DNA of 64,000 nt from Brachycybe producta (lineage: Eukaryota > Arthropoda > Diplopoda > Playtdesmida > Andrognathidae). The first letter of the stretch is position 1. Every line of letters starts with the position of its first letter. The stretch is from positions 1,332,001 through 1,396,000 of the forward strand of contig JAUPFP010000041.1 in assembly GCA_036925085.1 (NCBI GenBank), in the 5' to 3' direction. The notes under the pieces are model-generated. The model was not told the origin of the DNA and did not search any database. It was given only the letters and a program-made list of their open reading frames with translations. This document shows, piece by piece, positions 2,505 through 33,456 of this stretch. Position numbers and translations under genes: made by a program.

Positions 2505-2613
2505 TTTTCTCTCTCCTTCTCCCTCTCTCTTTCATCTGAGATGCATTAAAGAGTAGAATAGGTCATCATCAGCATCATCATTCTGAATAAAAAAATCACT
2601 TTGGCAACTTCAG

Positions 2614-3502: not shown

Positions 3503-3534
<32 letters not shown>

Positions 3535-4296: not shown

Positions 4297-4936
4297 ATTC
4301 TTTTGAAGAAGAAGAAGAAGAAGAAGAAAAAAAAACTTGCTATCTTCTTTGGAGATGTCTTTGATTTCCAAAAAGTTGTTTGCTGTCTTTACTAGCAAGA
4401 GTAGGTGATGATGTTGGTTTTTAGAAGAACTTTTTTGATATTCAAAGTTGAACACAAGTGGCACAAAATCCTTTAGCAGAAAAAAAAATTAATTTTTGTT
4501 GTTGCTCTTGCTGCTATACTTTAAAAGTCTTCAAAAGTTTGCGTTTAGTCAGGAAGGTAAAATAATTGGCTTTGTTGGTATAAACATGACAATTGGCATC
4601 ATTACATGTGGAGATTCCATCACCGCGGCCACGAAAAAAAAAATATAGTAAAATTCAATGTTTTATAAATGTCTTTTGTTTTGTTTTTTAAAAACAAAAT
4701 TTAAAAATTAACTTTTTAACAGATCTTTCTTCCGAAACTTCGTAAACAAAAAAGAAACTTTTTTGGAAGATGCACAAAAAACAAAAACTAAAATTCAAAA
4801 ACAAAAACTTTTCAAAACTCTTGGAAGGTTTTTTTTCTTGCCTTTCTTCTCTTAATATATATTTATATATCTTGAGAGCTCAGAGTCAATTTGCTAACTT
4901 TTCAAATGGCTTGCTCTAACTGAACTGAAGAGAACT
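4297..4936 (-). other. Predicted 5' UTR of the Maf gene
   Basis: This is the stretch between the inferred transcription start and the chosen ATG. It is A/T-rich with poly-A and poly-T runs. The 5' part of the longer open frame lies here and encodes mostly Phe/Leu and Lys runs, which I take as untranslated. A small (GAA)n tract sits just 5' of the ATG. Confidence 0.4.
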
Positions 4937-13547: not shown

Positions 13548-13551
13548 GCTC
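13548..13551. repeat. Target-site duplication GCTC, left copy
   Basis: GCTC directly precedes the 5' LTR and recurs directly after the 3' LTR at 33,453-33,456. It marks one complete integration with a 4-bp stagger. Confidence 0.8.
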
Positions 13552-13590
13552 TGTTAGGTGTTGAAAAAATAAGTAAAGCAACACCTAACA
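13552..13590 (+). repeat. Perfect 12-bp inverted repeat at the LTR tip
   Basis: TGTTAGGTGTTG (13,552-13,563) is exactly reverse-complemented at 13,579-13,590, with a 15-nt spacer. It sits at the terminus that integrase must recognise. The copy in the 3' LTR is at 30,895-30,933. Confidence 0.85.
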
Positions 13591-15004
13591 ATAATTTGAA
13601 AGAGGGGCAGAAATTAGTAAAAGAGAAAATTAAAATAAAGTAAAAAGAGAAAGAGGCGGAGCTAGAAAGAGAAACAATGAAAGAGAAGTAAAAAAGAGAA
13701 GAAAAAATGAGGAAATAAAAAATGGCGGGAAAGTAGTAGTAAAAGAGGGGGTGGATAAAGTATGAATGAATCACACCCACACACACACACTCATAGTAAA
13801 CAGAGGCAAAAAAGGGAGAGGCTGAAAAAAGTAAAAGAAACCCACCCACCCATAAGAGAATGACGAAGCAAGAAGAAAGTCAAAGAAAGGGGGGAAACAA
13901 AAAAGAAACCCACCCACACAAGTAAAAAGTAATAAAAAGTTTTTAAAGAAAACAAGAGAGGGGGGAAATAGAAAGACTAAACCCACCCACACACACTTTA
14001 GAAGGGTGAGCCCAAATAAGTGTACCATGTTAAATAAAAACTTTTTTACAAAATTAAATGTAATTAAAGAATGAAAAGAGTGGAAAACATACTATAAAGT
14101 GTAATAGATAGATAGATGAAGTGGTTAATTAACCTGATATAATCTGATTACCTAGTGGAGTGTAAAATAAGAGAAAAGTAAAGTTGAACAATGAAAAAGT
14201 TTAAATGTGACACTTAAAGAAGAAAAACATATGGTTTATACTTCATACTCACACGGTAGAAGACCACCTGTTTTACAAATAATTATGACGTCATTATAGA
14301 AAAAAAATAAAAAGAAAGAAGGGATGGAAAAAGTGTAACAAGATACTTTTTACCATACACTCTCTTCAATATGCAAAACAGCAAAGTAATAAAAAGTTTA
14401 AAAGAAAAAGTAAAGCACATAACAGGTTCTCAACACATTAAGAAAAGGGCCGTTAATAATATATAGAGTATATTGAAGACTATAGAGAGGAAACTTATGA
14501 ATGAGTATAATGAAATGAATGGAACAATATGTGAAGTCAAACATAACCCAAAAGAGGTACCGACAAGTAGCGAAAGAGTTGTATGATGTTAGGGTTCTCA
14601 ACAGAGTAGGGGTAAAAGGGCCAAAATCGTATTTAAATAGAAATACATTTCGGAGGGCCTAGAAAACCAAATAAAGGAACATTGGGAATGTTAGTCATTC
14701 AAATGAAATGTTATGAGTTGCCGAAAACTAAAACTTTCGATGAAAAGTTAAAAGGTTAACTATACTAATTCATAGAAAATGACGGTTAGTGGAAATAACA
14801 GTATGTATCGACGATCGTAAAAAATTTATAAAAAATCCAAATTGTAATTTTACGACCGGATGCATATTAGGCAGATGTTCGTAGAAGAAGATCAAAAGCC
14901 AGTTGACCGATTGGTTATTTTAATTTTAGAAAATTAATTCTAACCAATCAGAATACTTAAAATTCATTTCTGACTAAACAAGATGCGATGAACATCGTAT
15001 TCTA

Positions 15005-15401
15005 GAGAGAGTCCTACATTGGAGTTCTAGAAGAGAGGACATATGTTATAGATTTAGTAAAAAGAAAGAAGAAAGACCTTAGAAGAAATTTAGAGGATGA
15101 GACTTAGAAGAAATTTAAAGAATAGGACTTAGAAAAAGTTTAAAAGGAGACTTAGAGAATTTTTGTTTAAAAGGAGACTTAGAGAATTTTTGGTTAAAAG
15201 GAGACTTAGAGAATTTTTGGTTAAAAGGAGACTTAGAGAATTAGTGTTTAAAAGTGGACTTAAAGAATGTTAGAGAGTCCTAGATTGGAGTTCTAGAAGA
15301 GAGGACATATGTTATAGATTTAGTAAAAAGAAAGAAGAAAGACCTTAGAAGAAATTTAGAGGATGAGACTTAGAAGAAATTTAAAGAATAGGACTTAGAA
15401 T
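15005..15401 (+). repeat. 130-bp direct duplication inside the LTR
   Basis: The block 15,005-15,134 recurs at 15,272-15,401 with a difference of about one base (tacattgg versus tagattgg). Between them are several ~25-bp units built on aaaaggagacttagagaatt. The repeats give the U3 region a stepwise-grown look. Confidence 0.8.
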
Positions 15402-15790
15402 TATTTTGAATTGAGTTTGTGAAGTCATTTGGACTTAGAATTATTTTGAATTGAGTTTGTGAAGTCATTTGGACTTAGAATTATTTTGAATTGAGTTTGT
15501 GAAGTCATTTGGACTTAGAATTATTTTGAATTGAGTTTGTGAAGTCATTTAGACTTAGAATTATTTTGAATTGAGTTTGTGAAGTCATTTGGACTTAGAA
15601 TTATTTTGAATTGAGTTTGTGAAGTCATTTAGACTTAGAATTATTTTGAATTGAGTTTGTGAAGTCATTTGGACTTAGAATTATTTTGAATTGAGTTTGT
15701 GAAGTCATTTAGACTTAGAATTATTTTGAATTGAGTTTGTGAAGTCATTTGGACTTAGAGTTGTTTTGAGTTGAGTTTGTGAAGTGTTTT
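15391..15790 (+). repeat. Ten 40-bp tandem repeats in the LTR
   Basis: Units begin ggacttagaattattttgaa and repeat every 40 bp from 15,391; the tenth unit (15,751) is diverged. They sit immediately before the poly(A) signal, where U3 enhancer repeats occur in other LTR elements. The same array is at 32,734-33,133 in the 3' LTR. Confidence 0.95.
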
Positions 15791-15794
15791 GAGA

Positions 15795-15800
15795 AATAAA
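15795..15800 (+). terminator. LTR poly(A) signal AATAAA
   Basis: AATAAA follows the 40-bp repeats and lies 309 bp before the LTR end. It is the best candidate for ending element transcripts when used in the 3' LTR (33,138-33,143). Confidence 0.55.
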
Positions 15801-15900
15801 CCTAGGAGTTGGTTTTTCATGTAATTTGGATTTTGAGTCTGAGACCAGGAAAGTGTTTTCACGAAGCTATAATTCTCCGAAGACAACAAGAAGCCATCTA

Positions 15901-15908
15901 AGGTAAGG
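15901..15908 (+). promoter_or_regulatory. Splice donor AG|GTAAGG in the LTR
   Basis: A near-consensus 5' splice site, cut after 15,902. It is downstream of the probable transcription start and upstream of the primer binding site, the usual position of a retroviral major donor. It pairs naturally with the acceptors at 17,861 and 26,792. Confidence 0.6.
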
Positions 15909-16114
15909 TTAACAACTCTTGTTATCTTTATTAGGCCCAGTCCAAGAAAATTAAAAAATTACTACCACTCACTGATAAACTACAAAACCCATTCCCTACA
16001 TAAGCCTTCATTGGCTGGGAGGGTCGAACCCTAAACCCAATAGGTACTATTTGGCTGAAAGGGGAATCACAGAACACCACTGTGATAGCCGTGAAAACGG
16101 AAACTTACAAAAAG

Positions 16115-16131
16115 TGGCGCAGTCGACAGGA
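16115..16131 (+). other. Primer binding site (tRNA-Ser type)
   Basis: TGGCGCAGTCGACAGGA starts 6 nt after the LTR end. TGG pairs with the tRNA CCA tail, and GCAGTCG is the start of many animal tRNA-Ser genes, so its complement forms the acceptor 3' strand. The 17.6/297 group of Gypsy elements is also reported to use tRNA-Ser. Confidence 0.75.
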
Positions 16132-17851
16132 TTAGTTAAAAAATCGGTTGGGTGGTTGAATTGTTTTATTAGAAAGTTTTGTGGCAAAGCAATTGGAACA
16201 TTAGTTGGGGTTTTGGGATGGCAATTTGATTTTTAGAGTGTATTTTATTGAAGTGTATTGTCTTTTTCCTATTATTTGGTTGGGCTAAATTTGGATAAAT
16301 AAAATTAGTTTGAGTTCAATTGGGTTGGATTGATTTTTTTTTTTGTTTGGTGTTTAAATAATTCATTAGTTGCTTTGGTTAACAGTTGGGTTATTTTAAA
16401 GAAGTTCAGTTGAGACAATTGAGTTGTTTTGAAGCTTATATGGTCAAAGTTAATTGAAGTTATTAGATTATGTTGATTGGGATCTAAAAAGTGAATACAT
16501 GAAAAAATTTTTTTTGGATTACAGAATAAATTGTGCATGCTTACCTTGTTTTAAAATTGATGAACAAAGAGGTTAAAGAAATGAGTATTGAGTGATAGAC
16601 AGAGTTGGATTAATTTATGAAGTAAAACTGAGAATAATTTGCATGTTCTAGGGAGAATTGATTTTTAGAAAGCTGATTGAGATATTTTATGAATTTTAAT
16701 TGTAATTTTTTAGGGGTGAATTGGAATTGTGATTAACATGAGAAAATTAATTGAATTTTGAGAAAAGTTAATTGATTTGCTTCATTAAGTGTGGAATATC
16801 TTATTTGTTAATGTGTGAATTGGCTAATTCAGAAAAACTAAAAAAATTTTGGGTTTGGATTAATTAGGGTTATTTGAGGAATTCAACTGATTGCTTATTT
16901 TGGAATTAATTATATCAAATAACATTTGTGGCTAAAAGATACTAGAAGATCTTTCACAACTTAAATGGGATTATTTTCAAAATTTTGAAAATTATTTGTA
17001 TCTTAATGAGTTTTGAATTTTTGTGTTTAGTATTTAATCTTTATTAAAATTGTAGAACCCTGCAAAATATTATTTTCTTGGGTTACTATAGGAGAATTAT
17101 TGTTTGCAACTAAAACCTTTTTATTTTATGTATCTAAGACTGTTTTGTTTCATTTTTACCAAAATTGTCGAGGTTTGTCTAGTACAAGAATTGGACTGGA
17201 CAAACATAGAAATAGCAATCGAAGAGATTGCTTATTTCTTTATTGCTTTATGGGCAATTAAAGCATTCTGGGGTTAAATAAAAATACTTACTGGTGAACA
17301 AAGAAATGAGCTGGAAATTGTTAGTGTATTGTTGCATAAAGTTAACTGACTTGTTCTGGTTTAGAGGATTTGATTGGGAGGAGGTAGATATTACTGCTAG
17401 AGACCTCATTTATCTTTGTGTTCATCTTATCATGGTTAAAATACTTTGGGGTTAGAAGATAATGAAATTTGCAAGTCAATTAATGGTTTAATGAAAAAAA
17501 AAAAATTTCTGGAAGATTCTTAGGTTTACCCATATTGTTGTTGTGAGTGGATATGTTGAGTACATTATTATTGATTTTGATCAAGATTTTTGGGGGTCCT
17601 AAAATATATTAAGTGGCCTATTAAGTGCATGATTAAATTAAGTCATATTGCCTGAGTTGTTTTGTTTCAATTGTTTTGCAAATTGTTTTTGTATTGTACT
17701 TGTTTTTAAGATTTGCTCCCAACACACATACGCACGCTCCCATACAAAATTGCATACATAATTGCGCATAAAGTAATTAATTGATTAATTAGGTAATCGA
17801 TTAATGGGCCTTATTAGAGTGTTTGGGGGGATGAAAGAATCGTAATAATGC

Positions 17852-17861
17852 TCTTTTCCAG
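17852..17861 (+). promoter_or_regulatory. Splice acceptor before ORF1
   Basis: tgctcttttccag is a textbook pyrimidine tract plus AG, ending 3 nt before the ORF1 ATG. Splicing from 15,902 would put ORF1 first on a shortened message. Confidence 0.6.
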
Positions 17862-17864
17862 GTT

Positions 17865-18284
17865 ATGGCCGAAGCACCAGAAGACCGTGAACTGAACAAT
17901 TTTAAACCAGTGTGCAGAGTTTCCCCTAGAATTATAACAGAAGAAGAGTACCGAGAGCGACGAGAAAGATTCATCGACGAGGCGGAATTAGCGTATCACT
18001 TACTCTTGGCTAACCTAAGACCGTTGGCGGGTTACCAGTCGGTACGATTTAGCTTGCCGTCTCCGGTGAGCCCAACACCGAGTTCAATACCAAGTCCGAT
18101 ACCAAGTCCGGTACATTTTTTGGAGAGTGGAGTGGCACAATTTTATCTTCACGGAACTCCAATCTTTAACGTGAGATCGGATCTTGCTGGTTTCATCGCA
18201 CCTCCTTCGTCTCCCGTGGAAAGAGAACCACCGGAGCCACAGGACGAACGATTGGCAGACGACGGATTGCCATATCACGTTTAA
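17865..18284 (+). CDS. Element ORF1: proline-rich accessory protein of unknown function
   Basis: 139 aa, starting 3 nt after a strong splice acceptor. The N-terminal half is charged and predicted helical (TEEEYRERRERFIDEAELAY, about residues 26-45). The middle is a Ser-Pro repeat (PSP-type units, about 65-82). The C terminus is acidic and proline-rich. It lacks the C-x5-C module of the following ORFs. I recognise no family. Its position, ahead of gag and behind its own acceptor, suggests an accessory or regulatory protein made from spliced RNA. It could be specific to this element lineage. Confidence 0.6.
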   Translation: MAEAPEDRELNNFKPVCRVSPRIITEEEYRERRERFIDEAELAYHLLLANLRPLAGYQSVRFSLPSPVSPTPSSIPSPIPSPVHFLESGVAQFYLHGTPIFNVRSDLAGFIAPPSSPVEREPPEPQDERLADDGLPYHV

Positions 18285-18320: not shown

Positions 18321-18560
18321 ATGGATGAGTGCATGTTGCAGGACATTTGCATATTACCCTGGTGCCCATTAAGACCAGAGTGTAATATCATTGACTTGAG
18401 TGACATTGATGTTATTTTTGTATGTACTACACATTTGAGAACATTTGAGGGTGCCGAATATAATATTTGGATGAATGCTAAAGAATTAATTGTTTCCGTC
18501 CACGATTTATGGCAGATATTAGATGGATATTCCACTGATTTTGTAGGATTTGAAATATGA
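18321..18560 (+). CDS. Accessory ORF A1: CCCH-module microprotein (type A)
   Basis: 79 aa from the ATG at 18,321. One module, LPWCPLRPEC then C-x2-H, with spacing C-x5-C-x13-C-x2-H, followed by a Phe three residues on and a short helical tail. Type A copies share the LPWCP opening and recur at 19,631 and 20,314. The stop codon overlaps the start of the next ORF (ATGA, 18,557-18,560), which suggests coupled translation. Four conserved Cys/His residues imply metal binding, but that is inference. No known family recognised. Confidence 0.7.
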   Translation: MDECMLQDICILPWCPLRPECNIIDLSDIDVIFVCTTHLRTFEGAEYNIWMNAKELIVSVHDLWQILDGYSTDFVGFEI

Positions 18561-18847
18561 GTTTTGTGGATGAATACGAGGTATCCTCAACCAATGATTT
18601 TGTATGCCCTTATAGTAATATTTGTTTCAGAGCTCCAGATTTCTCAGACAATTCATATATGTGGAAGTGTATGAGCCACAATTACCTGTTTGATATTAGA
18701 GATTACCCATTTGTTGCACTAGGAAGACCTGGATCAAACAATTTAGAAGCAAGTATAGAATATAGTGAATTTTGTGAATATATTGGACAATTTATCATAC
18801 ATCCAAATCTGGTTGAAATCAAAAACTTTTTCAATAGCAGGAATTGA
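18557..18847 (+). CDS. Accessory ORF C1: CCCH-module microprotein (type C)
   Basis: 96 aa, sharing 4 nt with A1. One module (CPYSNIC, then C-x2-H after 14 residues) followed by FDIRDYPFVALGRP and a longer helical tail of about 40 residues. Its paralogue is the interrupted ORF at 20,584, which keeps the YPE-A-GR motif and tail length. Function unknown. Confidence 0.68.
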   Translation: MSFVDEYEVSSTNDFVCPYSNICFRAPDFSDNSYMWKCMSHNYLFDIRDYPFVALGRPGSNNLEASIEYSEFCEYIGQFIIHPNLVEIKNFFNSRN

Positions 18848-18862
18848 GAAGAAGTAAAGATT

Positions 18863-19063
18863 ATGTGTAGAAAAAAATCTTTAGTAAGTATAACTTGTCC
18901 ATTTAGTTTAAATTGTGTTTTTATTATAAAGAAAAGAGATAATTTGGTGAAGTGTGTTTGTCATCTTAATCATTTTCAAACTGAATACATTCAAAGTAAT
19001 CGTGACTTGAAAGATAAGTTCGAAATTTTATCAGTAAAAAAGCATGAACTTAGAAGACACTAG
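18863..19063 (+). CDS. Accessory ORF D1: CCCH-module microprotein (type D)
   Basis: 66 aa, 15 nt after C1. The module is CPFSLNC, 12 residues, then CVCH, near the N terminus, with a lysine-rich C-terminal tail. It overlaps the next ORF by 20 nt in another frame. Closest relative in the window is D2. Function unknown. Confidence 0.62.
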   Translation: MCRKKSLVSITCPFSLNCVFIIKKRDNLVKCVCHLNHFQTEYIQSNRDLKDKFEILSVKKHELRRH

Positions 19064-19253
19064 TAGGAACATACCACAGTGCCCAATAGGTCCTTATTGC
19101 ATTGTAAGATTTTTTCGAGAAAGTGGTCGAGTTAAGTGTTTTGTACATGATACCTGGTATCAGACAGAAAAAATCCCAGAGAAAATTATAATTAAAGAGA
19201 CAAGTAATTTGAAGTTGAAGGTAATAAAGGAAGAGGAAAAGAAAGAAAGTTAA
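19044..19253 (+). CDS. Accessory ORF D2: CCCH-module microprotein (type D)
   Basis: 69 aa. The module is CPIGPYC, 12 residues, CFVH, then a Tyr three residues on; the tail is rich in Lys and Glu. The CPIGP opening is shared with the first module of B1, so D and B probably derive from one ancestor. The start lies inside D1 by 20 nt. Confidence 0.65.
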   Translation: MNLEDTSRNIPQCPIGPYCIVRFFRESGRVKCFVHDTWYQTEKIPEKIIIKETSNLKLKVIKEEEKKES

Positions 19254-19263
19254 GATATTTAGT

Positions 19264-19623
19264 ATGAGTGAGGATTATCAAACGAATAGGTTACAGTGCC
19301 CCATAGGACCAGATTGTATTACTAAGTTTCATCGATCTATAGGACGGATTGAATGCCTCACCCATAAATTCTGGTATTTACCTGCAGATTACGTATACAG
19401 GTGTGCTAATCAAGGTTATTTCCCGATACAAGCTGTTGTTGATTGTACTGATCAAGACACTGAGGAAGACATTCGAAGAATAATTATAAGTAGATGGGAA
19501 TCGTGTCCTTATGCTAGGAATTGTGCCTTTGTAGCCATCACACAAAACGAAGCTCCAAGGGAATTCCAGTGCATTATACACGGAACCGTAATTAATACTC
19601 TTTTTAACGTAATCCATATGTAA
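19264..19623 (+). CDS. Accessory ORF B1: two-module CCCH protein (type B)
   Basis: 119 aa with two modules: CPIGPDC-x12-CLTH near the N terminus and CPYARNC-x15-CIIH near the C terminus, joined by about 55 residues. The second module type has a constant 15-residue gap, also seen in B2. The two-module layout and exactly equal length of B1 and B2 argue for selected coding sequences. It is followed 7 nt later by A2. Confidence 0.7.
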   Translation: MSEDYQTNRLQCPIGPDCITKFHRSIGRIECLTHKFWYLPADYVYRCANQGYFPIQAVVDCTDQDTEEDIRRIIISRWESCPYARNCAFVAITQNEAPREFQCIIHGTVINTLFNVIHM

Positions 19624-19630
19624 AGGGGGT

Positions 19631-19852
19631 ATGGACTTAAATGTATTACCATGGTGTCCTATAAGACTTAATTGTGTAATAATTGATAGAAGAAACATAG
19701 ATAACACATATGCTTGCCTTACACACCAAAGGGCTTTTCAGATAGAAGAATACGAAAATTGGCTTCAAGTTAGAACATTATTGACAACACTAGGTGAACT
19801 ATTGCAAGATATATATAGCTTTTTCATAAGAATAGAAGAAGAAAGTGTATAA
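19631..19852 (+). CDS. Accessory ORF A2: CCCH-module microprotein (type A)
   Basis: 73 aa; LPWCPIRLNC-x13-CLTH, then AFQIEEYENWL. It is very close to A3 in the module and the following helix, so the B-A pair looks recently duplicated. It begins 7 nt after the B1 stop. Confidence 0.7.
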   Translation: MDLNVLPWCPIRLNCVIIDRRNIDNTYACLTHQRAFQIEEYENWLQVRTLLTTLGELLQDIYSFFIRIEEESV

Positions 19853-19911
19853 AGAATTCTAGTTATAGACAGAAAATATTATGGTTTATTAATGAGTGAT
19901 ATTTAAAGGGT

Positions 19912-20271
19912 ATGGATTTAAGCATACAAAGGAAAAAGGAACGAGACGCCAATAGATGTCCTTTTGGGAAAAGTTGTAGTATAGTACACGAAGATTTTCA
20001 AGAATTTGTAACATGCGAAGTCCACAACGTAAATTTTGCATTTCCTGAGTATCTATACATGTGTGGTATAAATCCAAATGTAAACAGAGTAATTTTTGAG
20101 ACTAAGTGTAAAAGTCCCTTAGAAGAACTTCAGTTATTAACAGATAGAATTGGTAATCATTGTCCATTGCATGACGAATGCTTTTTTGTCTTAATTTCAC
20201 CAAAAACTTGGCCTAAACAGTATCAATGTGCAGTTCATCAAAAGATATTTAATGAACATTTGGGAGTATAA
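19912..20271 (+). CDS. Accessory ORF B2: two-module CCCH protein (type B)
   Basis: 119 aa, the same length as B1. Modules are CPFGKSC-x12-CEVH and CPLHDEC-x15-CAVH. An extra ATG lies upstream at 19,881 in another context, but this start aligns with B1. Conserved cysteines and histidines are kept while other residues differ widely, which is the pattern of a structural metal site. Confidence 0.7.
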   Translation: MDLSIQRKKERDANRCPFGKSCSIVHEDFQEFVTCEVHNVNFAFPEYLYMCGINPNVNRVIFETKCKSPLEELQLLTDRIGNHCPLHDECFFVLISPKTWPKQYQCAVHQKIFNEHLGV

Positions 20272-20313
20272 AAAATAAAGGAAAAAAGCGTGTTTGTTTG
20301 AATTCTTAATAAA

Positions 20314-20550
20314 ATGAGTGTTGATTTAGAATTATTACCATGGTGTCCCTTAAGGTTTAGTTGTGATATTATTGATTTAACAGAAATAGAGAACATTCAT
20401 GTGTGTCTCACACATCATAGAGCTTTTCAAGTAGAAGAATATGAACTTTGGCTTCGTGTTAAACAGTTGTTAACCTCATTAAATGAATTATTGCATGAAT
20501 TAGATGAATATTCCATAGAGTCAGAAATAGATATTGACCGATTTAGATAA
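20314..20550 (+). CDS. Accessory ORF A3: CCCH-module microprotein (type A)
   Basis: 78 aa; LPWCPLRFSC-x13-CLTH then AFQVEEYELWLRV and an acidic tail. Third type A copy. It is followed 33 nt later by the type C pseudogene, mirroring the A1-C1 order. Confidence 0.7.
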   Translation: MSVDLELLPWCPLRFSCDIIDLTEIENIHVCLTHHRAFQVEEYELWLRVKQLLTSLNELLHELDEYSIESEIDIDRFR

Positions 20551-20583
20551 AGAAGTTTTATTGTCAGAAAATAATTTAGAATA

Positions 20584-20883
20584 ATGAGCGAGAATTTTAG
20601 TGATCAAGATAAGGTTTATAGGTGTCCTGAACTAAAAAATTGTTTCTAAACACAGTGTCACCATCATAGACAAGATTATAGGTGGAAGTGTGTTACACAT
20701 TATAGGCATTTTGATAAAAGAAATTACCCAGAGATAGCATTTGGGAGAGTTGCATGTTCATATGAAAAAGCAGTTAGAGAATTGATAGATTTTAATGAGT
20801 ATTTGTCCCGCTTAGGTCACCCCGCAAAAACACAGGAAAGAATAGATTTTTTCGTACAAAGAGACTTAGAAGGGGAAGATTAA
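20584..20883 (+). pseudogene. Accessory ORF C2: type C copy with one in-frame stop
   Basis: The reading frame runs 99 codons but has a TAA at codon 22 (20,647-20,649), just after the second module cysteine (CPELKNC). Beyond it the frame continues with C-x2-H, a Phe three residues on, and the type C motif (YPEIAFGR) plus tail. Only one stop is seen, so it is recently broken, subject to readthrough, or a sequencing error. It ends 31 nt before gag. Confidence 0.65.
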
Positions 20884-20914: not shown

Positions 20915-22126
20915 ATGGAAGAAGACAAAATGGCTTCCAATGATGGAGAAGTCGGTAACTCCAATGGTGGTGCAGAAGGTAACGCAAATACGAATCTTAA
21001 CATGCATCACACAGGGTTAATACCATATTTTTCTGGGGATGAAAAAGGACCATCCGCCAAAGAGTTTTTTGAGCAAATAGAAGGTGTAGCTAATTTAGCA
21101 AGATGGACAGAAGAGTTCCAGATCATTCTGATAAAATCCAAGTGCAGAGGTCCTGCTGCGGAATTTTTCAGAGATCATCCAAGCATTAGACAGATAAACT
21201 CAATTGAAGAGTTAAAAGCGTTGATGATACAAAGATTCGAGCCAATCGAACCTAAGTTGGTATCAATGCAGAAGTTTTTAGAAGAAAAACAGAGCAACAC
21301 GGAAAGCGCTATTGAGTATATTTCCAGAGTAAAGACCAGAGGAAGAGCCTTCACCGAGGAAAATCCCAGTGCCGACCAGATAGCAGTCAGAGATGGGATG
21401 ATACAAAATCAAATCATCAAAGGATTGCATCCAAGAATAAAAAGATTTGTACTTTCACGGAATCCTGCTGATTTGAACGAAACAATCAGAATCATTCTAG
21501 CGGAAGAAGAAAATGAGAAGTTGGTTCATGCGAAATATGGAATAAATGTAATAGAGACGATTACTGAAGAAAAGGAGATGCTGAAGAAATTTGAAGAGAA
21601 ATTAAAGCAATTGGATGCTCAGAGAACTAAAGACATTGCAGTATTGGACCAGAAGTTTCAAGAAAAAATAAAGGCTCAAGAGAATGCCAAGAAAGAGGAA
21701 GGAAGTAATCAAAGGATGGATAAACGAAATGTTGAATGTTTCAGATGTCACAAGAGAGGACATTATGCTAATGAGTGTTGGTCAAAACCAACAATTCCAC
21801 AGCAATGGAGAAATCCGAGTTACCCACAACCAAATTGGAATCAGCCACAAGCTTTTCAGCCTAATGGTAGAGCTCCTAATTTTGGAAATACACAGAGAAA
21901 TGTGCAGATTGAAAGGCAGAGAGGCCAAGGATGTTATAATTGTGGGAAGATGGGTCATTATGCAAAGGATTGTAGAATGAAACAAGTCCAAAGACAAAGT
22001 GAACCCATAGTATGTTTTAAATGTGGAAAGCAAGGTCATTTTGCAAATGTTTGTAGATTAGGAGCAAGACAGAACCCAGGGAATCAGGTTCGAAGAAATC
22101 AAGCAAATGGTAGGACGGAAAACTAG
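20915..22126 (+). CDS. gag: Gag polyprotein of the Gypsy element
   Basis: 403 aa. It forms the virus-like particle and binds element RNA. The N-terminal half is a retrotransposon-type capsid region (FSGDEKGPSAKEFFEQIEGV, then helical segments with the usual ALM-RF and RG-R-F features). A charged coiled-coil stretch lies near 205-255. Three CCHC knuckles follow (about 275-288, 340-353, 367-380), each C-x2-C-x4-H-x4-C. The start at 20,915 is immediately preceded by a weak acceptor-like AG. Pol lies in the -1 frame, open only from 22,114. Confidence 0.93.
   Translation: MEEDKMASNDGEVGNSNGGAEGNANTNLNMHHTGLIPYFSGDEKGPSAKEFFEQIEGVANLARWTEEFQIILIKSKCRGPAAEFFRDHPSIRQINSIEELKALMIQRFEPIEPKLVSMQKFLEEKQSNTESAIEYISRVKTRGRAFTEENPSADQIAVRDGMIQNQIIKGLHPRIKRFVLSRNPADLNETIRIILAEEENEKLVHAKYGINVIETITEEKEMLKKFEEKLKQLDAQRTKDIAVLDQKFQEKIKAQENAKKEEGSNQRMDKRNVECFRCHKRGHYANECWSKPTIPQQWRNPSYPQPNWNQPQAFQPNGRAPNFGNTQRNVQIERQRGQGCYNCGKMGHYAKDCRMKQVQRQSEPIVCFKCGKQGHFANVCRLGARQNPGNQVRRNQANGRTEN
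22114..22126 (+). other. Gag/pol overlap: possible -1 frameshift window
   Basis: Pol is in the -1 frame relative to gag, and its frame is open from 22,114, leaving a 13-nt overlap that ends at the gag TAG. The bases GGAAAAC sit directly before the stop; this is only loosely like a slippery heptamer. Reinitiation at the pol ATG (22,165) is the alternative. Confidence 0.35.
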
Positions 22127-22164: not shown

Positions 22165-24978
22165 ATGTATGAAAACCGCGTCACATTAAACATTCTGAAT
22201 GACACAACATGTCCTATCTTTTTAGCTCAGTCGAAAAACAATCTGATAAAGATTCTATATGACACAGGAGCAGGAATATCGATAATTTCCAAATCCTTAT
22301 TTGAAAAGATAAAAGGACGGAAATCACGAGATATAAAGCCTATCACTGATCAAGCTAAGGTTATAATTACCACAGCGAATGGTACACCGTTTCGTACAAA
22401 GGGATTATATGAAATACCCGTACGTATTACAGCAGAGAAAGTGGAAAAGGTTCCTTTATACGTGAGTGCAGAAGATTTGCCAAAGAAATATCAGATGATT
22501 TTCGGCATAGATGTGATAAAGCAGTTGGGATTAACATATGAACCCTTGCTTGATGTAATTGGTTATAATGGGATGAAAATTAAGACAAGAAGTTTAGAGA
22601 AAAATGAAATGATTAATATGTTGCAGAAAAAGGGAGATAAAGAATGGATATTAGAAGTAGTAAGTAAAACGGAGACAGAGAATCAGAATCAATTAAGAAA
22701 ATTTTTGGAGAAAAATGATGATATATTTGCAGGTTCACTTAAAGAACTGAAACCGACACCTGTTGTTGAACAAGAAATCCACATGGTGGATCAAGTTCCA
22801 GTTTTTATACGACCATACAAGTTGCCACAGAAATCAGAAGAAGTTATGAAAGAGAAAATTGATGAGTTATTAGATGCAGGAATAATTAGACCATCGTTAA
22901 GTCCTTACTCAGCACCGTGCATGCTTATAGGAAAACCAGATGGGAGTCAAAGATTAGTTGTTGATTATCGAGCATTGAATTTAAAGGTTGTTAGTGATAA
23001 ATATCCATTACCAGAGCTTTTGGGAGTAAGTAATCAATTAGGAGAAGCTGTTTATTTTTCTACTTTAGACATGGCAAGTGGTTTTTACCAGATTCCCATA
23101 ACAGAAGAAGATAAAGCAAAAACAGGTTTTAGTACACCTTTTGGACACTATGAATTCAACAGATGTCCAATGGGACTAAAAACATCTCCAAGTGTATATC
23201 AGAGACTTATGGATAATGTATTAGGTGATTTGAAAGGGAAAATTTGTTTTGTTTACATGGATGATATTATTGTATACAGTAAAACTATAGAGGAACATTA
23301 TGAAAGGTTAAATTTAGTGTTTGAGCGACTTAGAAATGCAAACTTAAAAGCAAAACCAACAAAATGTTTGTTCCTACAGAAGGAAATAAACTATCTAGGA
23401 CATACATTTACACAAGGGAAATTCCAACCAGGTGGAAAGAAAGTAGAAGCAGTAGAAAATTTTCCGAGACCAACAAGTGTCAAGAAAATACAAAGTTTTG
23501 TGGGATTAGTAAACTTTTATAGAAAATTTATTCCAAATTGTGCAAGTTTAGCAGGTCCATTAACAAAGTTGTTAAGTAAAGATACTCCATTTCTTTGGAC
23601 AAAAGACTGTGAAGAATCTTTTCAGAAATTAAAAGGATGTTTGATTACATATCCAGTTTTGATAATGCCAAATTTTGAAAGACCATTTTATTTGACTACG
23701 GATGCAAGTAATGAAGCAATCGGGGCAATCCTCGAACAAAAGATTGACGGTCAATTACACCCAATATCTTATGCGAGTAGGAAGCTCACCAAATCAGAAC
23801 AAAATTATTCTACGACATGGAAAGAGGCATTAGCATGTGTTTATGGTGTAAATTATTTTCGATATTACTTGATGGGAAGAAAGTTTACTCTTATCACAGA
23901 TCATCAACCATTAAAATACTTGATGACTATGAAAAAAGATAAAGCTATGTTAACTAGATGGGCATTACAGTTACAACAATATGATTTTGAGGTTTTATAT
24001 AGAAAAGGTAAAGAGAATACTAATGCAGATGCTTTGAGTCGAAATCCTGTAGAAAGTAAAGAATTAAATGTGTTAAATGAACAAGAAACTTGGGAAGAAC
24101 ATGAGGTTGCTAAAGATCAAGAAAATTGCGAAGAATTGAAATCTTTCATGGAATGTTTATATGGTTGTCCAGTAGATAAAAAGGTAAAAGAAAAAGTTGA
24201 TAAGTTGGGTTTAGAATTAAATACAAAAGGTTGGTTAGTAAAAAGATCCGAAAATAAATTAAGAACTGTAGTCCCTTTGAGTAAAAGAAATTATGTGTTG
24301 AAAATGTGTCATGATAATATTACAGCAGGTCATTTTGGTATTGAAAAAACAACAAGCAAAGTTGCAGACAGATTTTATTGGGAAACTTTAAAGAAAGATG
24401 TGAAACAATATTGTGAAGCTTGTGTATCGTGTAATCAGAAAAAGATTCCACATGGGAAAAGTCCATTATGTAAATTCCCAGCACCATCCAAACCATTTGA
24501 AAGAATTGGAATGGATATACTAGGTCCTTTACCTACTACACAGAATGGAAATAAATACATTGTAGTTATTTGTGATTATCTAACAAGATACCCAGAAGCA
24601 TTTGCTATTCCAGATCAGAAAGCTGAAACCATTGCAAATTTGTTAGTAAGAGAAATTATTTCACGGTATGGTAGTCCCCAGACTCTAATAACAGACAGAG
24701 GTGCAAACTTTATGTCTGAACTTATGAAAAGTCTGTGTGAGACATTCGGAATTAAAAAGATTTTTACGTCAGCATATCACCCGCAAACAGATGGTTTAGT
24801 TGAGAGATTCAACAGGACACTAACAACAATGTTATCACATTATGTTGATAGTTCACAAAGAAATTGGGATGAGGAACTTCCATTAGTATTGATGGCATAT
24901 CGTAGTGCGATGCATTCAAGCACTAAGGAGACACCTTATTTTTTTATTGTTTGGACAGGATATGAATTTACCATTTGA
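22165..24978 (+). CDS. pol: Pol part 1: protease, reverse transcriptase, RNase H, integrase core
   Basis: 937 aa as read. Order: aspartic protease (DTGAG at about 33-37), Ty3-type reverse transcriptase with YMDD (about 364-367), RNase H (TDAS, Asp near 513), and integrase with an HHCC zinc domain (His 716 and 723, Cys 753 and 756) and catalytic D784, D844, E880 (D-35-E). Domain order with RNase H before integrase identifies Ty3/Gypsy. The last ~20 residues are out of the conserved frame: after a run of seven T (24,939-24,945) homology continues in another frame in the next entry. All catalytic residues precede the break, so only the integrase C terminus is affected. Confidence 0.93.
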   Translation: MYENRVTLNILNDTTCPIFLAQSKNNLIKILYDTGAGISIISKSLFEKIKGRKSRDIKPITDQAKVIITTANGTPFRTKGLYEIPVRITAEKVEKVPLYVSAEDLPKKYQMIFGIDVIKQLGLTYEPLLDVIGYNGMKIKTRSLEKNEMINMLQKKGDKEWILEVVSKTETENQNQLRKFLEKNDDIFAGSLKELKPTPVVEQEIHMVDQVPVFIRPYKLPQKSEEVMKEKIDELLDAGIIRPSLSPYSAPCMLIGKPDGSQRLVVDYRALNLKVVSDKYPLPELLGVSNQLGEAVYFSTLDMASGFYQIPITEEDKAKTGFSTPFGHYEFNRCPMGLKTSPSVYQRLMDNVLGDLKGKICFVYMDDIIVYSKTIEEHYERLNLVFERLRNANLKAKPTKCLFLQKEINYLGHTFTQGKFQPGGKKVEAVENFPRPTSVKKIQSFVGLVNFYRKFIPNCASLAGPLTKLLSKDTPFLWTKDCEESFQKLKGCLITYPVLIMPNFERPFYLTTDASNEAIGAILEQKIDGQLHPISYASRKLTKSEQNYSTTWKEALACVYGVNYFRYYLMGRKFTLITDHQPLKYLMTMKKDKAMLTRWALQLQQYDFEVLYRKGKENTNADALSRNPVESKELNVLNEQETWEEHEVAKDQENCEELKSFMECLYGCPVDKKVKEKVDKLGLELNTKGWLVKRSENKLRTVVPLSKRNYVLKMCHDNITAGHFGIEKTTSKVADRFYWETLKKDVKQYCEACVSCNQKKIPHGKSPLCKFPAPSKPFERIGMDILGPLPTTQNGNKYIVVICDYLTRYPEAFAIPDQKAETIANLLVREIISRYGSPQTLITDRGANFMSELMKSLCETFGIKKIFTSAYHPQTDGLVERFNRTLTTMLSHYVDSSQRNWDEELPLVLMAYRSAMHSSTKETPYFFIVWTGYEFTI

Positions 24979-25978
24979 TTTAATAGGAGATGAACCTCAG
25001 CCAGTGTACAACACTGAAGACTATGGAAAGGTAGTGGCAAATAGGATGCAAAAGATACATGATATAGCAAAAGAGAGTTTAGAAAAATCAGCTGAAAATC
25101 AAATTAGATATCAAGGAAAGAAAAGAAAAAATAAAGGAATACAAGTAGGTGAAAAGGTATATTTGAATGTACCACAAGTAGCACAAGGTAAAACGAAAAA
25201 ATTAGCGAAGTTGAACAAAGGTCCTTATCGAGTCATTAGACAAACGTCACCTGTTAATTTTGAGATAAAGCACATGTATAGACACAAAGATGTACAAATA
25301 GTTCATGAAGAGAGATTAAGAGTAGTAAAAGGAAAAAATCCATGGGAAAAGATTGAGGACTGTACAGAAAAGGTGAAAGAACCTAAAAAACAAAGCAGAA
25401 AAGGCAAAATGCCTAGTGAATCGAGTAATTCAAGTTCAGATGATGATGATGAAGACAATGCAGATAAAATTGATTATTGTTGTGAAAAGGTACCTACAGT
25501 AAATACTAAGACACCTAAGGGAATTATTCGGAACACAGAAGCCGTACCCAGTACTAGTGGTTATAATTTACGAAGTAAAGGTTCCATACAGTTTGCTACG
25601 CCATTACCAGTAAGAACAAGAAGAATTACACCTAGGACAGAAGTATTACCTAAACTACCAGATCCACCTAGAGTTGAACCAGGCGAATCTGAAGATGAAG
25701 GAGATTTGAGTTTAGCAAGGTTACGTAAAAAGTTGCAAGAGATATTGAATAAAGGAAATTCTAGGGATACCCAAGAGGAAGATAGACATCCTCCAAGTAT
25801 TTCGGAATCCCAAGAAATTAGTGCATCAGAAGAAGAAATTCAGAGTGAACAGGATTCTATAATTGAAGAAGATACTAGAAAAACTGGTCAAGAAGAGCCA
25901 GAAGATAATGTAGCAGGACAATTGTTAGACAAGATGTTTAAATTAGTAAGTGTGATAGAAAGAATGAGTAAGAAATAA
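24947..25978 (+). CDS. pol: Pol part 2: integrase C-terminal domain and acidic tail, frame-shifted
   Basis: This is a continuation of pol in a different frame, with no credible start of its own. It begins with the conserved end of the integrase core, then a GPY/F-type module (KGPYRVIRQT) typical of Gypsy integrases. No chromodomain is seen. A long tail follows (from about 25,340), rich in Ser, Glu and Asp, with a basic NLRSKG segment, a possible coiled coil (LARLRKKLQEIL) and a second hydrophobic helix at the end. The tail is longer than in most Gypsy integrases. The shift could be mutation, sequencing error in the T run or, less likely, recoding. Confidence 0.82.
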   Translation: MFGQDMNLPFDLIGDEPQPVYNTEDYGKVVANRMQKIHDIAKESLEKSAENQIRYQGKKRKNKGIQVGEKVYLNVPQVAQGKTKKLAKLNKGPYRVIRQTSPVNFEIKHMYRHKDVQIVHEERLRVVKGKNPWEKIEDCTEKVKEPKKQSRKGKMPSESSNSSSDDDDEDNADKIDYCCEKVPTVNTKTPKGIIRNTEAVPSTSGYNLRSKGSIQFATPLPVRTRRITPRTEVLPKLPDPPRVEPGESEDEGDLSLARLRKKLQEILNKGNSRDTQEEDRHPPSISESQEISASEEEIQSEQDSIIEEDTRKTGQEEPEDNVAGQLLDKMFKLVSVIERMSKK

Positions 25979-26219
25979 TTCGGTTAAGGTAGTCATTGAA
26001 AAGGAAAATGATGAAAAAAGTTATGATAAATAATAGATGTAATTGAGAAAAAATGTTTGAGTTTAGATTAGCGGACAAAGTATTGATATTGTTAATGAAT
26101 TGTTAGACAACATGACATTGAGTTAGCTTATCCATATTTAACGACTAATGAGTAAAAATGAATGGTTTATTGAATTAATGAAGATAAAAAAATAACAGAG
26201 AAAGATAAATGATTTAAAG

Positions 26220-26400
26220 CATTAGTGTTGGACGACGGACTGTCCGGAAATAAGTAAAAGAAAATAAGAATAATTTAAAGCATTAGTGTTGGACGACGGA
26301 CTGTCCGGAAATAAGTAAAAGAAAATAAGAATAATTAAAACATTAATGTTGGACGACGGACTGTCCGGAATTATGAAAAGGAAAATTAAGAATGATTGAA
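26220..26400 (+). repeat. Three ~60-bp direct repeats with a CGGAC-T-GTCCG hairpin
   Basis: Units start at 26,220, 26,281 and 26,341. Each contains gttggacgacggactgtccg, in which CGGAC and GTCCG form a tight inverted repeat (26,236-26,246, 26,297-26,307, 26,357-26,367). The third unit diverges only after the hairpin, suggesting the core is what is kept. Confidence 0.85.
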
Positions 26401-26783
26401 ACAGTAATGATAAAAAATAGACGGTCTAAGTGTTGAGAAAATAAGTATATTTTGAAAAGAGAGTATAGAAATAAAATTGAATCAAAGAAGTTCTCATTAA
26501 AGATCTAAGCTAGGAAAATAATTGTTGTAAAGCAACAAAGGCTAGTAAAGATTGACAGATTATGCTAAAGAAGAATTTAATAGAAATAGTAGAAGCTTAG
26601 GGGGCAGGAGACCCACTACTAATGAATATAGGAAGAAGAGATTAATGAAATTGAAATATTGTTTGTAGGAATTGAGATTTTGTTTTAAAGAGTTTGAAAT
26701 TGTTGTTTAAAGATGTTGAGGAAATTGATTAACTATTTGTTATAAGTGTATAATGATTTGGTTTTAGGAGATGAGAAGTTTGT

Positions 26784-26805: not shown

Positions 26806-29499
26806 ATGGCGTTCGATAAGATGATTGGAATTTTGCTGTTGTGGACGATAGCAGTCACGGGACAGGAATATTACGACATCGAAATTTGTAATTGGAAGAA
26901 AGGTGAAAAGGTTTGCAAAGAAGCGGTTATAAACAGTCCGGAACCGTATTCGGATAAAATGTGCCCGCAAAATGGTTGCAGAGAATGTATGGTTAAATGG
27001 GTTACAAAATTAATAAGTAAAGAGGGAAAAAGCGAATCAGCTGTAGAATTTCAAGTTAAGCAAACAGAAGAAACAAATGGTAACAGTGAAATGTATAAGT
27101 GCCAAAATAGAGGAATGCCATGTAGTTGTGCTAAAAATGATACTTGTTCAGGAACAGAACAATATTGCAAAAGCACAAGAAAATGCGCAAGTAAGAAGAC
27201 AGAATGTCATTGCGAAATAGTTCGAGCAAATACAAGATTAATACATGTGAACAAAAAGGGTATTGAATCAGAAGGATTTGAAATAATATCTTATAGAGAA
27301 TGTTACTTCAACACATCTGAGTTAAAATATGGAAGGAAAAGAAAACGTATTGGGCGAAATTTATTGGGAATGGATACGTTCAAAATTGAGGAAGGGGTAA
27401 ACTTCATCAAATTTAATGATCCCGTCATAACAGTAAGTGCAGAAGGCACAGTTATAATTAGAAAAGACGGAGTAGAAAGAAGTTTACATGTGGGAAAAAA
27501 GAAACAGGTTATTATAAATCCTGAATTTGGTATGGAATCTGGTACCCTTCATATCATCTTCATTTCCACAGAAGGTCATATGATGGAAGGAAAGTTCCAT
27601 ATTGAAGGTAAAGATATATGTCACAGATTAAAATGTGTTTTATGTTATGAGTTTGTCTATAATATTCAATGTATGCCAACATATCTAACATATGCTATAA
27701 TCATATTATTGATGTTAATGACTAGTATTGTTGTTTTATATATCAAAGCAGTGTTGAAATCATTATGGAATTTATTATCTTGGTTTATTATGTGTTCATT
27801 GTTTATATATCGTATTGGTAAAAAGTGTTTAAAGGTATCTATGGTTATTGGTGTCGCTAGTGGTCGATCCGTAAAAAATAAAGTCAAAAAGGTTAAAGAT
27901 AAGTATGATGATTTGGAAACAGGTACTTTATCAAGAAATAGTATCCTGAGTCCAACAGTCATTACTATAATAATTTTGATAGGATTTTTATTAAGTTTGG
28001 TTTCAAGTGCACAAGCGAAATGCACAGAACATAAAATGATAAAATCACAAATTACTGAATGTCAAGAAACGAATCAGGGACAAAAATGTTCCCTAGCCAC
28101 ATCAATACAGGTAACTTTAACCAATTTAGAGTATACTGCATGTTTATGGCTAACTGATCATCAAGAAAACTATGTTGCAAGTGTTGAAATAAGATTTGAA
28201 AGTGTAAATTGTGAATGGCGAACGGAAAGATTATACTATACATTTCCAACCGAGCTATTCACTTTAAATCAAATTGCATGTCCTCAAAATAAGTATTGTG
28301 GATGGGGAGATCATTGTCACCCAGATTATAAATTTGAATTGTTAACTAAAGAAGCTTTAGATTGGCCAGGAGTAACAGATTGTTTTCCAGGTGATTCTGG
28401 AACTTCATGTTTTATAGCCAGCAGACAACCATGTCATCATTTCCGATGGTATTTGAAACCTGATTATAAAAATGTATTTGAAGTAAGAAAAATTTCTAGT
28501 ATGAAGTGTCACCCTAAAATAATATTGACTATTAAGAATAATGATACTGAGACAAAATATGCAATCCGGTCGGCAAAAGAAGTGCCCGATCAAATATATG
28601 TTGAAGTAGTTGGAGTTTTTGATCAAGCAACTGATATTATTTCCAAGCATTTGATAATCAAACATGGGAATGGGTCAGAAGCTTATTTAGATACAGCTGC
28701 AGAATTCTCAAGACCCTATAGAGGCCAAATTGGGGATGTACAAGCTGGTGAAGCCATATCAAAGGATTTTTTATTTGATAAAAGAATGGTAGAATGTAGT
28801 TTCTTTGAGTCACGAATGACTTGTACGAAACAACAATCATATCTAGAATTAATGATGCAAAGTAAAAGGAATCTAATACCTATGGCATTAACGAATCATA
28901 AAGTGTTTGTTGACAAAGAAGGCCGATTGAAATCTTCTTTAATTGTATCTAGCCCAGCAGTAGTACATTTAATAGTAGAAAACTATCAGGTCATATTAAG
29001 TACAGTTCGAGTGTGTCCCCGTATATTAAGAATAGTAGCTCATCAGGGGTGTTATTCTTGCTCAATATTAGCAGTAGTGCAAATTGAAGCAATTAGCACA
29101 TGTTTTCCAGGAACAGTAACAATTACCTTTGAAGACATACCTATGAGTACCAGAGCTCTCACTCTCACTACTAGTGCCAAAATATATGATATACAGATAC
29201 AGATTAGTAAAAAATGTATTTCCGATAAAGTGTGTTTACAATCGCGAGTTGGAGTGTCGTGCGAGAAATTTGAAGGATGCTTCGAAGAACCACAGTTGAA
29301 TCTTCAAAGAACTTTCGATGCTCGTGTTACATCTGTTGGAGGATATTCTCCAGGCGACGAATTTACGTTCTCATCAATCTTTCCAAACTTTTTGGGAAGC
29401 TTGGGATCTATGTTCTACGCTCCGTTCATGATCGGACTAAGTATATTAGGATCATGTTTTGTGTTTTCATGTGTGCTCAGCATGATGCGAATGAGATAA
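26806..29499 (+). CDS. env: Env: phlebovirus Gn/Gc-like glycoprotein precursor
   Basis: 897 aa membrane glycoprotein. A signal peptide (1-19) leads a cysteine-rich ectodomain with a basic cleavage-like site (GRKRKR, 176-181), then two membrane segments (about 294-314 and 321-337). A third hydrophobic segment (about 384-401) ends in SSAQA-K, a good signal-peptidase site, and starts a second ectodomain. That part has the many-cysteine pattern of the phlebovirus G2 (Gc) class II fusion protein; the fusion-loop-like region is about 498-543 (CGWGDHC ... WPG ... CFPGDSG). A C-terminal anchor lies near 870-892 with a very short tail. Phlebovirus-like env genes are known in Tas and some Cer elements; here both halves of a Gn-Gc precursor appear to be kept. 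The frame is open throughout. I assigned it by pattern, not by search. Confidence 0.82.
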   Translation: MAFDKMIGILLLWTIAVTGQEYYDIEICNWKKGEKVCKEAVINSPEPYSDKMCPQNGCRECMVKWVTKLISKEGKSESAVEFQVKQTEETNGNSEMYKCQNRGMPCSCAKNDTCSGTEQYCKSTRKCASKKTECHCEIVRANTRLIHVNKKGIESEGFEIISYRECYFNTSELKYGRKRKRIGRNLLGMDTFKIEEGVNFIKFNDPVITVSAEGTVIIRKDGVERSLHVGKKKQVIINPEFGMESGTLHIIFISTEGHMMEGKFHIEGKDICHRLKCVLCYEFVYNIQCMPTYLTYAIIILLMLMTSIVVLYIKAVLKSLWNLLSWFIMCSLFIYRIGKKCLKVSMVIGVASGRSVKNKVKKVKDKYDDLETGTLSRNSILSPTVITIIILIGFLLSLVSSAQAKCTEHKMIKSQITECQETNQGQKCSLATSIQVTLTNLEYTACLWLTDHQENYVASVEIRFESVNCEWRTERLYYTFPTELFTLNQIACPQNKYCGWGDHCHPDYKFELLTKEALDWPGVTDCFPGDSGTSCFIASRQPCHHFRWYLKPDYKNVFEVRKISSMKCHPKIILTIKNNDTETKYAIRSAKEVPDQIYVEVVGVFDQATDIISKHLIIKHGNGSEAYLDTAAEFSRPYRGQIGDVQAGEAISKDFLFDKRMVECSFFESRMTCTKQQSYLELMMQSKRNLIPMALTNHKVFVDKEGRLKSSLIVSSPAVVHLIVENYQVILSTVRVCPRILRIVAHQGCYSCSILAVVQIEAISTCFPGTVTITFEDIPMSTRALTLTTSAKIYDIQIQISKKCISDKVCLQSRVGVSCEKFEGCFEEPQLNLQRTFDARVTSVGGYSPGDEFTFSSIFPNFLGSLGSMFYAPFMIGLSILGSCFVFSCVLSMMRMR

Positions 29500-30066
29500 C
29501 TGTACTCATCTTTCACTATGAAAGAACAGTGAAAGGGAGAAGACTATTTTCTCAATATTGCATCTATAATATACATAGAGAAGAATTATCTACAACAACG
29601 ATACTGTAGAAGTTGTGACATTTTACCAGGTGATAAAATCTGTGAAAATGTACCAAAAAAGACTTCTAAAACAGTTTAAAGAAAGACATCAAAGAAAAGA
29701 TCAGCCCATGACATCACACAAAAAGATGAACATGGATGATTTCTAAACATCTTAAAGGTTGGAAAGAAGGAAAAAATTCAAGACATCAGAGATGAAAAGA
29801 ATCAAGACATCAATGAAGAGAGAATTCAAGACTTCTGAGAATAATTAAGAGAAGACAGCAGATGGACAGCGTGGAAGACCACAGGAATCCATATGATTAA
29901 AGGCATCACGAAGATATGAAGATGACCAAGTGTGATGGCACGAAAGACTGAATTTCTGAACTTATTTGTGAGTAGAGACTTAATGGAAATAGTGTGTTTT
30001 TAGATGTGAAATTTAAGGTGTTATTAGGTTAGATTTGATGGTTAGGATGTAACATTTTTGAGAGTG

Positions 30067-30290
30067 AAGAGTGAAGGGAAAACATAGAATAATTTGAAAA
30101 TAGAATTGGTACAGTAGAAAAATGAAGAAATTAATGTCCAATGAAGAGTGAAGGGAAAACATAGAATAATTTGAAAATAGAATTGGTACAGTAGAAAAAT
30201 GAAGAAATTAATGTCCAGTGAAGAGAAAACATAGAATAATTTGAAAATAGAATTGGTACAGTAAAGAAACAAAGATGAAATTGATGTCGA
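30067..30290 (+). repeat. Three ~76-bp tandem repeats downstream of env
   Basis: Units start at 30,067, 30,143 and about 30,220 and share aacatagaataatttgaaaa and aattggtacagta. The third is slightly shorter and diverges at its end. Confidence 0.85.
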
Positions 30291-33452: not shown

Positions 33453-33456
33453 GCTC
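33453..33456. repeat. Target-site duplication GCTC, right copy
   Basis: Matches GCTC at 13,548-13,551. Together they define the integration site. Confidence 0.8.

Follow-up and report, generated by a model that had tools for sequence, protein, structure and literature searches.

The window analysed here, a stretch of 64,000 nucleotides from the genome of the millipede Brachycybe producta, contains an array of small ORFs carried by a 19.9-kb Ty3/Gypsy provirus with an LTR pair, gag-pol and a phlebovirus-type env, all on the forward strand. The 5′ LTR (positions 13552–16109, 2558 nt) starts with TGTTAGG, ends with ACTTACA and holds tandem repeats of 40 bp and 27 bp. The 3′ LTR (30895–33452) shows 0 mismatches to it, and the direct repeat GCTC flanks the provirus on both sides (13548–13551 and 33453–33456) as a 4-bp target duplication. 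Since the two LTRs are identical, this copy has inserted recently. A primer-binding-site-like stretch, TGGCGCAGTCGACAGG, was located by its sequence at 16115–16130, 5 nt past the 5′ LTR, and presumably resembles the tRNA-Ser-type primer-binding site of errantiviruses. The gag gene (20915–22126) encodes three CCHC knuckles and matches the Pfam family Retrotrans_gag weakly (20.3 bits against a cut-off of 24.1). It is followed by pol (22165–24978) with protease, reverse transcriptase (RT), RNase H and integrase; the protease match falls slightly below its cut-off (28.0 versus 28.2 bits), and the C-terminus of the integrase sits in a different frame (24905–25978). The paired LTRs with TG..CA ends, the short target duplication, and gag plus pol with the Pfam order protease–RT–RNase H–integrase are those of a Ty3/Gypsy element. 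Downstream, env (26806–29499) contains the Phlebovirus_G2 fusion domain (E 1.5e-29) and also matches G1 weakly (22.6 bits against a cut-off of 25).

With errantiviruses and other env-bearing Ty3/Gypsy elements, such as gypsy-like ones that captured a viral env, the provirus shares the LTRs, the 4-bp target duplication, the CCHC knuckles of gag, the order of the pol domains and the position of env 3′ of pol. Errantiviruses in the strict sense are defined by a baculovirus F-like env, and the element was not assigned to them, its env being of the Phlebovirus_G2 kind with no F-type family in its three Pfam rows. It thus differs from errantiviruses, in which the baculovirus-F type is usual, in its phlebovirus-type env, and also in the approximately 4.8 kb between 5′ LTR and gag, which are filled by a leader ORF and the accessory array.

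The array lies between the leader ORF (17865–18284) and the start of gag at 20915, and its ORFs are built from a module of the pattern C-P-x4-C-x12-15-C-x2-H with four ligands (C, C, C, H). ORF 1 (18321–18560) holds a type A module at 18363 and ORF 2 (18557–18847) a type C module at 18605, the ATG of the latter sharing 4 nt with the stop of the former. ORF 3 (18863–19063) and ORF 4 (19044–19253), which overlap by 20 nt, each contain a type D module, at 18896 and 19080, respectively. Two modules, D and B, are joined in ORF 5 (19264–19623; at 19297 and 19504), and two more, E and B, in ORF 7 (19912–20271; at 19957 and 20161), while type A occurs alone in ORF 6 (19631–19852; at 19655) and in ORF 8 (20314–20550; at 20344). 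ORF 9 (20584–20883), of type C, does not stay open in the window copy, where an in-frame TAA at codon 22 (20647–20649) falls between the second and third ligand of the eleventh module. The initial annotation had counted nine ORFs with eleven modules; all eleven modules are present at this place on the forward strand, but only eight ORFs are intact, and these hold ten of the modules.

A scan of the complete 64-kb window in all six frames, in which the first five spacer residues had to be non-cysteine and the third spacer could span 11–17 residues, returned 10 matches, every one within 18363–20161. When the rule on cysteine was dropped (spacer 11–15), the entire window again yielded 10 matches, all 10 of them within the region. 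Dinucleotide shuffling of the region (500 shuffles) gave a mean of 0.004 motifs, and shuffling of residues in the eight ORF products (2000 shuffles) a mean of 0.01, with a maximum of 1 in either case. The spacing reported at the outset was reproduced, as was the aromatic residue four places past the histidine in 10 of 11 modules; C-P begins all 11. Likewise, the claim that cysteines and histidine are kept while other residues vary held across 37 modules, rows chosen for the tree with decayed copies left out, in which no column other than C, P, C, C and H is invariant; decayed copies without the proline exist outside these rows in L012, L019, L020, L026, L027, L029 and L031. The recurring types A, B, C and D were also recovered, but a fifth has to be added: the module at 19957, the first of the two in ORF 7, falls in a starred clade of 5 rows and represents the separate type E. 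In two cases (D-B and E-B) a pair of modules shares one ORF. The module tree has little resolution because the columns are few: of its 34 inner branches only 3 carry a star, those leading to A (7 rows), to E (5 rows) and to the B2 pair from L009 and L010. Profile matches from type to type are moderate (hhalign probability 40–56%).

Copies of the array ORFs were sought in the whole 295-Mb genome, where all counts are lower bounds. ORF 5 is represented by at least 18 rows at ≥90% identity (window included), none of which contains a stop, and by two further, more decayed copies, one with two stops and one split. For ORF 9, at least 14 near-full-length rows of the family are free of stops, and the frame is also open in C3:10328877, in C20:890235 and in a partial row in C85; the TAA of the window copy recurs at the identical codon in C1:10525716, and the copy at C1:12323667 carries three stops. 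More distant matches pointed to sister lineages, and 20 loci of 9 kb, followed by 3, 3 and 4 more, were examined; as they were chosen by their modules, this survey is silent on elements that have no array. An array stands 5′ of gag not only in the window family but in four more lineages, L009/L012, L010/L011, L014/L016/L017/L019 and L035, so that the observation is more general than the window copy alone and extends to five lineages of this genome.

The arrays of the four further lineages comprise 2–9 modules and differ in order and fusions. The window order A-C-D-D-DB-A-EB-A-C compares with C-A-D-DB-EB in L009, E-C-AC-D-DB-(DWDLQ ORF)-EB in L010, A-C-D-D-(Bcl-2-like)-A-(DWDLQ ORF)-EB in L016 and C-D in L035. 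The L035 array may be a decayed remainder, since the gag and pol frames of that locus are broken as well; its gag fragment is 67–77% identical to gag of the other four lineages. Fusions found among the lineages are A-C (one ORF joining both in L010), D-B, E-B and D-D-B, the last with D fused onto DB in L027. These differences in order, copy number and fusion bear out the suggestion in the initial annotation of a modular accessory-gene family grown by duplication, and its ORFs are present both in copies of the window family and in the four other lineages.

The leader ORF encodes 139 amino acids without a Pfam family (best E 0.32) and does not contain the C-P-W-x3-C...H-x3-C finger found in the leaders of L009, L010 and L016; a Pfam scan of the L010 and L016 leaders returned no family either. 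Sequence comparison revealed a 3′ splice-site-like tract, ctcttttccag, at 17851–17861, 3 nt 5′ of the leader ATG, and a pyrimidine tract with CAG directly 5′ of this ATG occurs in the window, L009 and L010, i.e. in three of the four lineages examined. In L014/L016, neither an ATG nor a clear acceptor precedes the leader finger. Inspection by eye found no acceptor common to all lineages 5′ of gag, and 51 ATGs lie between the leader acceptor and gag. Many of the array ORFs follow each other closely, being separated by just a few bases or overlapping slightly, as they do by 4 nt at the A-to-C junction in both the window and L016, but gaps reach 243 nt in L009. The simplest inference from this arrangement is that the array is probably expressed from a polycistronic mRNA spliced to the acceptor just 5′ of the leader ORF, the closely spaced ORFs being translated by coupled or leaky initiation.

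The modules were compared with known metal-binding folds. Pfam gave no credible family for the module ORFs, of which the eight open ones and five from sister lineages were scanned; CCCH-type matches, to Nab2p_Zf1 (E 1.3) and zf-CCCH_2 (E 4.4), were confined to ORF 7. In profile searches against the PDB, type C gave weak matches to a ribosomal protein, the PBZ fingers of APLF and the Rieske protein AioB; type A matched only designed helical proteins, via its tail, and two other module alignments gave no matches. No convincing relative was seen in a collection of 5.8 billion proteins, which may hold few animal genomes, and the module is apparently undescribed. As had been noted from the sequence at the outset, its spacing is unlike that of classic CCCH, CCHC or CHHC fingers. 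All 10 open modules read C-x5-C-x12-15-C-x2-H, which excludes both the classic (C-x7-8-C-x5-C-x3-H) and the Nab2-type (C-x5-C-x4-6-C-x3-H) CCCH finger. The PBZ finger (C-x5-C then H-x5-H) agrees in its first pair of ligands but not in the second, which is C-x2-H in the module; the CHHC pattern (C-x5-H-x9-H-x3-C) is present in 0 of 37 modules; and the Rieske domain (C-x-H ... C-x2-H) disagrees with the C-x5-C of the first pair, the AioB match having an E of about 1. What the module shares with APLF PBZ, U11-48K/GTSF1 CHHC and Nab2-type CCCH fingers is a first half resembling C-P-aromatic-x3-[C/H], with five residues between ligands 1 and 2, whereas the second ligand pair and its spacing differ from the family consensus each time. 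The leader finger of the sister lineages (C-x5-C...H-x3-C) is close to the CHHC finger, with cysteine in place of the first histidine.

AlphaFold models of three modules share one order of three strands at modest confidence (ORF 2, mean pLDDT 77.2 and pTM 0.62; ORF 5, 66.9 and 0.42). It is conceivable, though we consider it doubtful, that the module is a diverged known metal fold, be it Rieske-like, rubredoxin-like (zinc ribbon) or of the PBZ/CHHC type with swapped ligands, a reading that fits either of the functions discussed below. The models show a strand order like that of a zinc ribbon, a fold with two knuckles on a three-stranded sheet; W-x-C-x2-H-x3-F is reminiscent of the second Rieske loop; and the weak matches include, besides AioB, the first half of the APLF PBZ fingers (E 0.4–0.5), for which the L010 leader finger gave an E of 0.006. 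Binding of zinc by the modules is predicted from their sequence as likely. Most likely one zinc per module would be held between the C-P-x4-C loop and the C-x2-H knuckle on a three-stranded sheet.

Selection on the array, as postulated in the initial annotation, is evident as purifying selection in five comparisons of low divergence within the window family, with array-wide pN/pS values of 0.43 (L028), 0.31 (L029) and 0.29 (L026, L027 and L030). For gag the corresponding values are 0.16 (L028), 0.18 (L029) and 0.29 (L027 and L030), so that of these four copies L028 and L029 show weaker constraint on the array than on gag, and L027 and L030 the same on both. Two single ORFs, D1 compared with L026 (pN/pS 1.31) and DB compared with L027 (1.10), showed no constraint on the basis of few changes, and three single-ORF comparisons were without any synonymous change. 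Between lineages, pS exceeded pN in 65 of 66 module pairs, which are not independent and in many of which dS is saturated; the sole exception was the pair of E-B ORFs of the window and L010. In these pairs between lineages gag is under stronger constraint than the modules, which is what modules facing the host would lead one to expect. The coding constraint on the array is real, and neither of the two results named at the outset as refuting the accessory-gene reading, a lack of purifying selection or absence of the ORFs from all other copies, was obtained.

The array is interpreted as a block of accessory genes in an env-bearing provirus of the Ty3/Gypsy group, with zinc-module products that are probably host-directed, a proposal to which, taken as a whole, we give an even chance. 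Its accessory-gene part is well supported, and action on the host is probably the best explanation of what the products do. Each gene would provide one or two four-ligand modules and a type-specific tail, and duplication, fusion and reshuffling of one ancestral module, common to all types, would have given rise to the genes. The products would probably serve as small adaptors for host proteins or nucleic acid and in this way help to maintain a permissive infected cell, as accessory proteins do in complex retroviruses and in large DNA viruses.

The main alternative, which we judge somewhat unlikely, is that the modules instead bind the genomic RNA of the element itself and control its export, translation or packaging, in the manner of CERV or of the Rev protein of complex retroviruses. 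Small zinc modules often bind RNA, and the unspliced RNA needs special handling because gag lies 3′ of the entire array with its many intervening ATGs; yet 7–11 diverged modules are hardly needed for RNA regulation, and their number and order differ widely among lineages. A precedent is Cer1 of C. elegans, whose accessory protein CERV is produced from a spliced mRNA, as it would be here, and is needed for export of genomic RNA according to the available part of the report (PMC10309623). CERV is a single RNA-export protein, however, and that part of the report mentions no repeated zinc module (PMC10309623). That the array is a relic of old duplicated ORFs carried without function is very improbable: the ORF 9 stop shared by two copies, including the recently inserted one in the window, and the unconstrained single ORFs speak for it, and an individual ORF could be dispensable, but the array-wide constraint, the invariant ligands and the stop-free ORF 5 copies contradict it.

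Further genes accompany the modules in sister lineages. The arrays of L010 and of the L016 group include an ORF whose product has a DWDLQ motif and a basic tail, and a Bcl-2-like gene, absent from the window family, sits inside the array of the L014/L016/L017/L019 lineage. Of the two roles offered in the initial annotation, countering host defence and regulating element RNA, the former is indirectly backed by the presence of this gene. In L016 it occupies 2540–3007, where it separates the second D from the second A. Its product scored 25.2 bits against Pfam Bcl-2 (E 2.5e-5), below the cut-off of 31.4, and the best 60 of 92 PDB rows were all chains of the Bcl-2 family (best E 0.0022). A genome search with this gene gave 161 candidates, and all 150 that were scored matched, some being pieces of one gene. 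Three sampled relatives (33–53% identity), in loci L032, L033 and L034 of 7–10 kb each, adjoin integrase and ATPase genes of the Polinton type. L032 was recognised as a Polinton/Maverick by Pfam through its retroviral-type integrase (rve and chromo) and A32-type packaging ATPase (Pox_A32), the corresponding ORFs of L033 and L034 by eye. Pfam Bcl-2 scores were 42.6 bits in L033 and 21.3 bits in L032, and two L034 ORFs were unmatched.

The Bcl-2-in-Gypsy part of these findings has a precedent, since the giant Gypsy-like Burro elements of planarians carry a BCL2-like motif together with BIR and MATH_TRAF_C, by the part of their description available (PMC6431247). Burro likewise combines a Gypsy-like element with extra host-like domains and, in one species, has an upstream accessory ORF; its domains lie mainly in a 4,873-aa ORF1 polyprotein rather than in small individual ORFs, and those named in that part do not include the zinc module (PMC6431247). 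The LTR elements of bdelloid rotifers also have extra ORFs, which occur in different kinds of retroelement; as far as their account was available, these ORF3s encode a GDSL esterase and a DEDDy exonuclease, and do not form an array before gag (PMC5408684). The reordering of the array and its mixing with accessory genes such as the Bcl-2-like regulator suggest a block for managing the host cell. A broader reading, whose chances we put just short of even, is that a lineage of animal Ty3/Gypsy proviruses has evolved a pre-gag accessory region in the style of large DNA viruses, with a new family of zinc modules that expands and shuffles by duplication and a Bcl-2-type apoptosis regulator with relatives in Polintons of this genome; genes for control of the host would then have passed between reverse-transcribing and DNA elements.

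The usual description of an animal LTR element is gag-pol, with env either present or absent. The lineages of B. producta described here have a maintained and diversifying accessory region built on a module without convincing relative in Pfam, the PDB or 5.8 billion proteins, and their arrays, which range from 2 to 11 modules, offer a natural series in which the role of the module can be probed. The Bcl-2-like gene common to a Gypsy lineage and to Polintons makes gene traffic between these classes of element directly testable.

A Bcl-2-like ORF with a hydrophobic C-terminal tail (L016, 2540-3007) is enclosed by the module array of a sister lineage, and such an ORF is also found at L014, L017 and L019 and, in partial form, at L021 in the same genome. 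The genome holds at least 150 matches to this Bcl-2-like ORF, some of them pieces of one gene. Polinton/Maverick integrase and packaging-ATPase genes adjoin Bcl-2-like genes at L032 (4500-4973) and L033 (3448-3939), the Polinton-type context being drawn from three sampled non-Gypsy matches.

A C-terminal DWDLQ motif is common to ORFs at L010 (3719-4165), L016 (3194-3535), L020 (1621-1947) and L031 (593-1105), several DWDLQ ORFs having a basic tail; the three scanned, from L010, L016 and L031, gave no credible Pfam match. The leader ORFs of sister lineages (L010, 1263-1946; L016, 621-1460; L009, 1465-1803) contain C-P-W-x3-C...H-x3-C, which resembles the CHHC finger but with one ligand swapped, and which is absent from the window leader. 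An additional C-type module ORF is present at L016 (22-261), upstream of the leader, and at L037 (2071-2280).

In the window element, the integrase C-terminus (24905-24978) and the remaining pol do not share a reading frame, despite identical LTRs; in L016, a pol frame extends over 1228 residues with no such break. Tandem repeats occur in the LTR (40-bp and 27-bp units; 15084-15930), between pol and env (units of about 61 bp; 26138-26426) and 3' of env (about 77 bp; 30065-30288). Elsewhere in the window, a fragment of a second retroelement (47087-47714, minus strand) gave weak matches to a zinc knuckle and an aspartyl protease, and a bZIP Maf transcription factor gene (2614-4488, minus strand; Pfam E 2.8e-30), a single long open frame, is probably a host gene.
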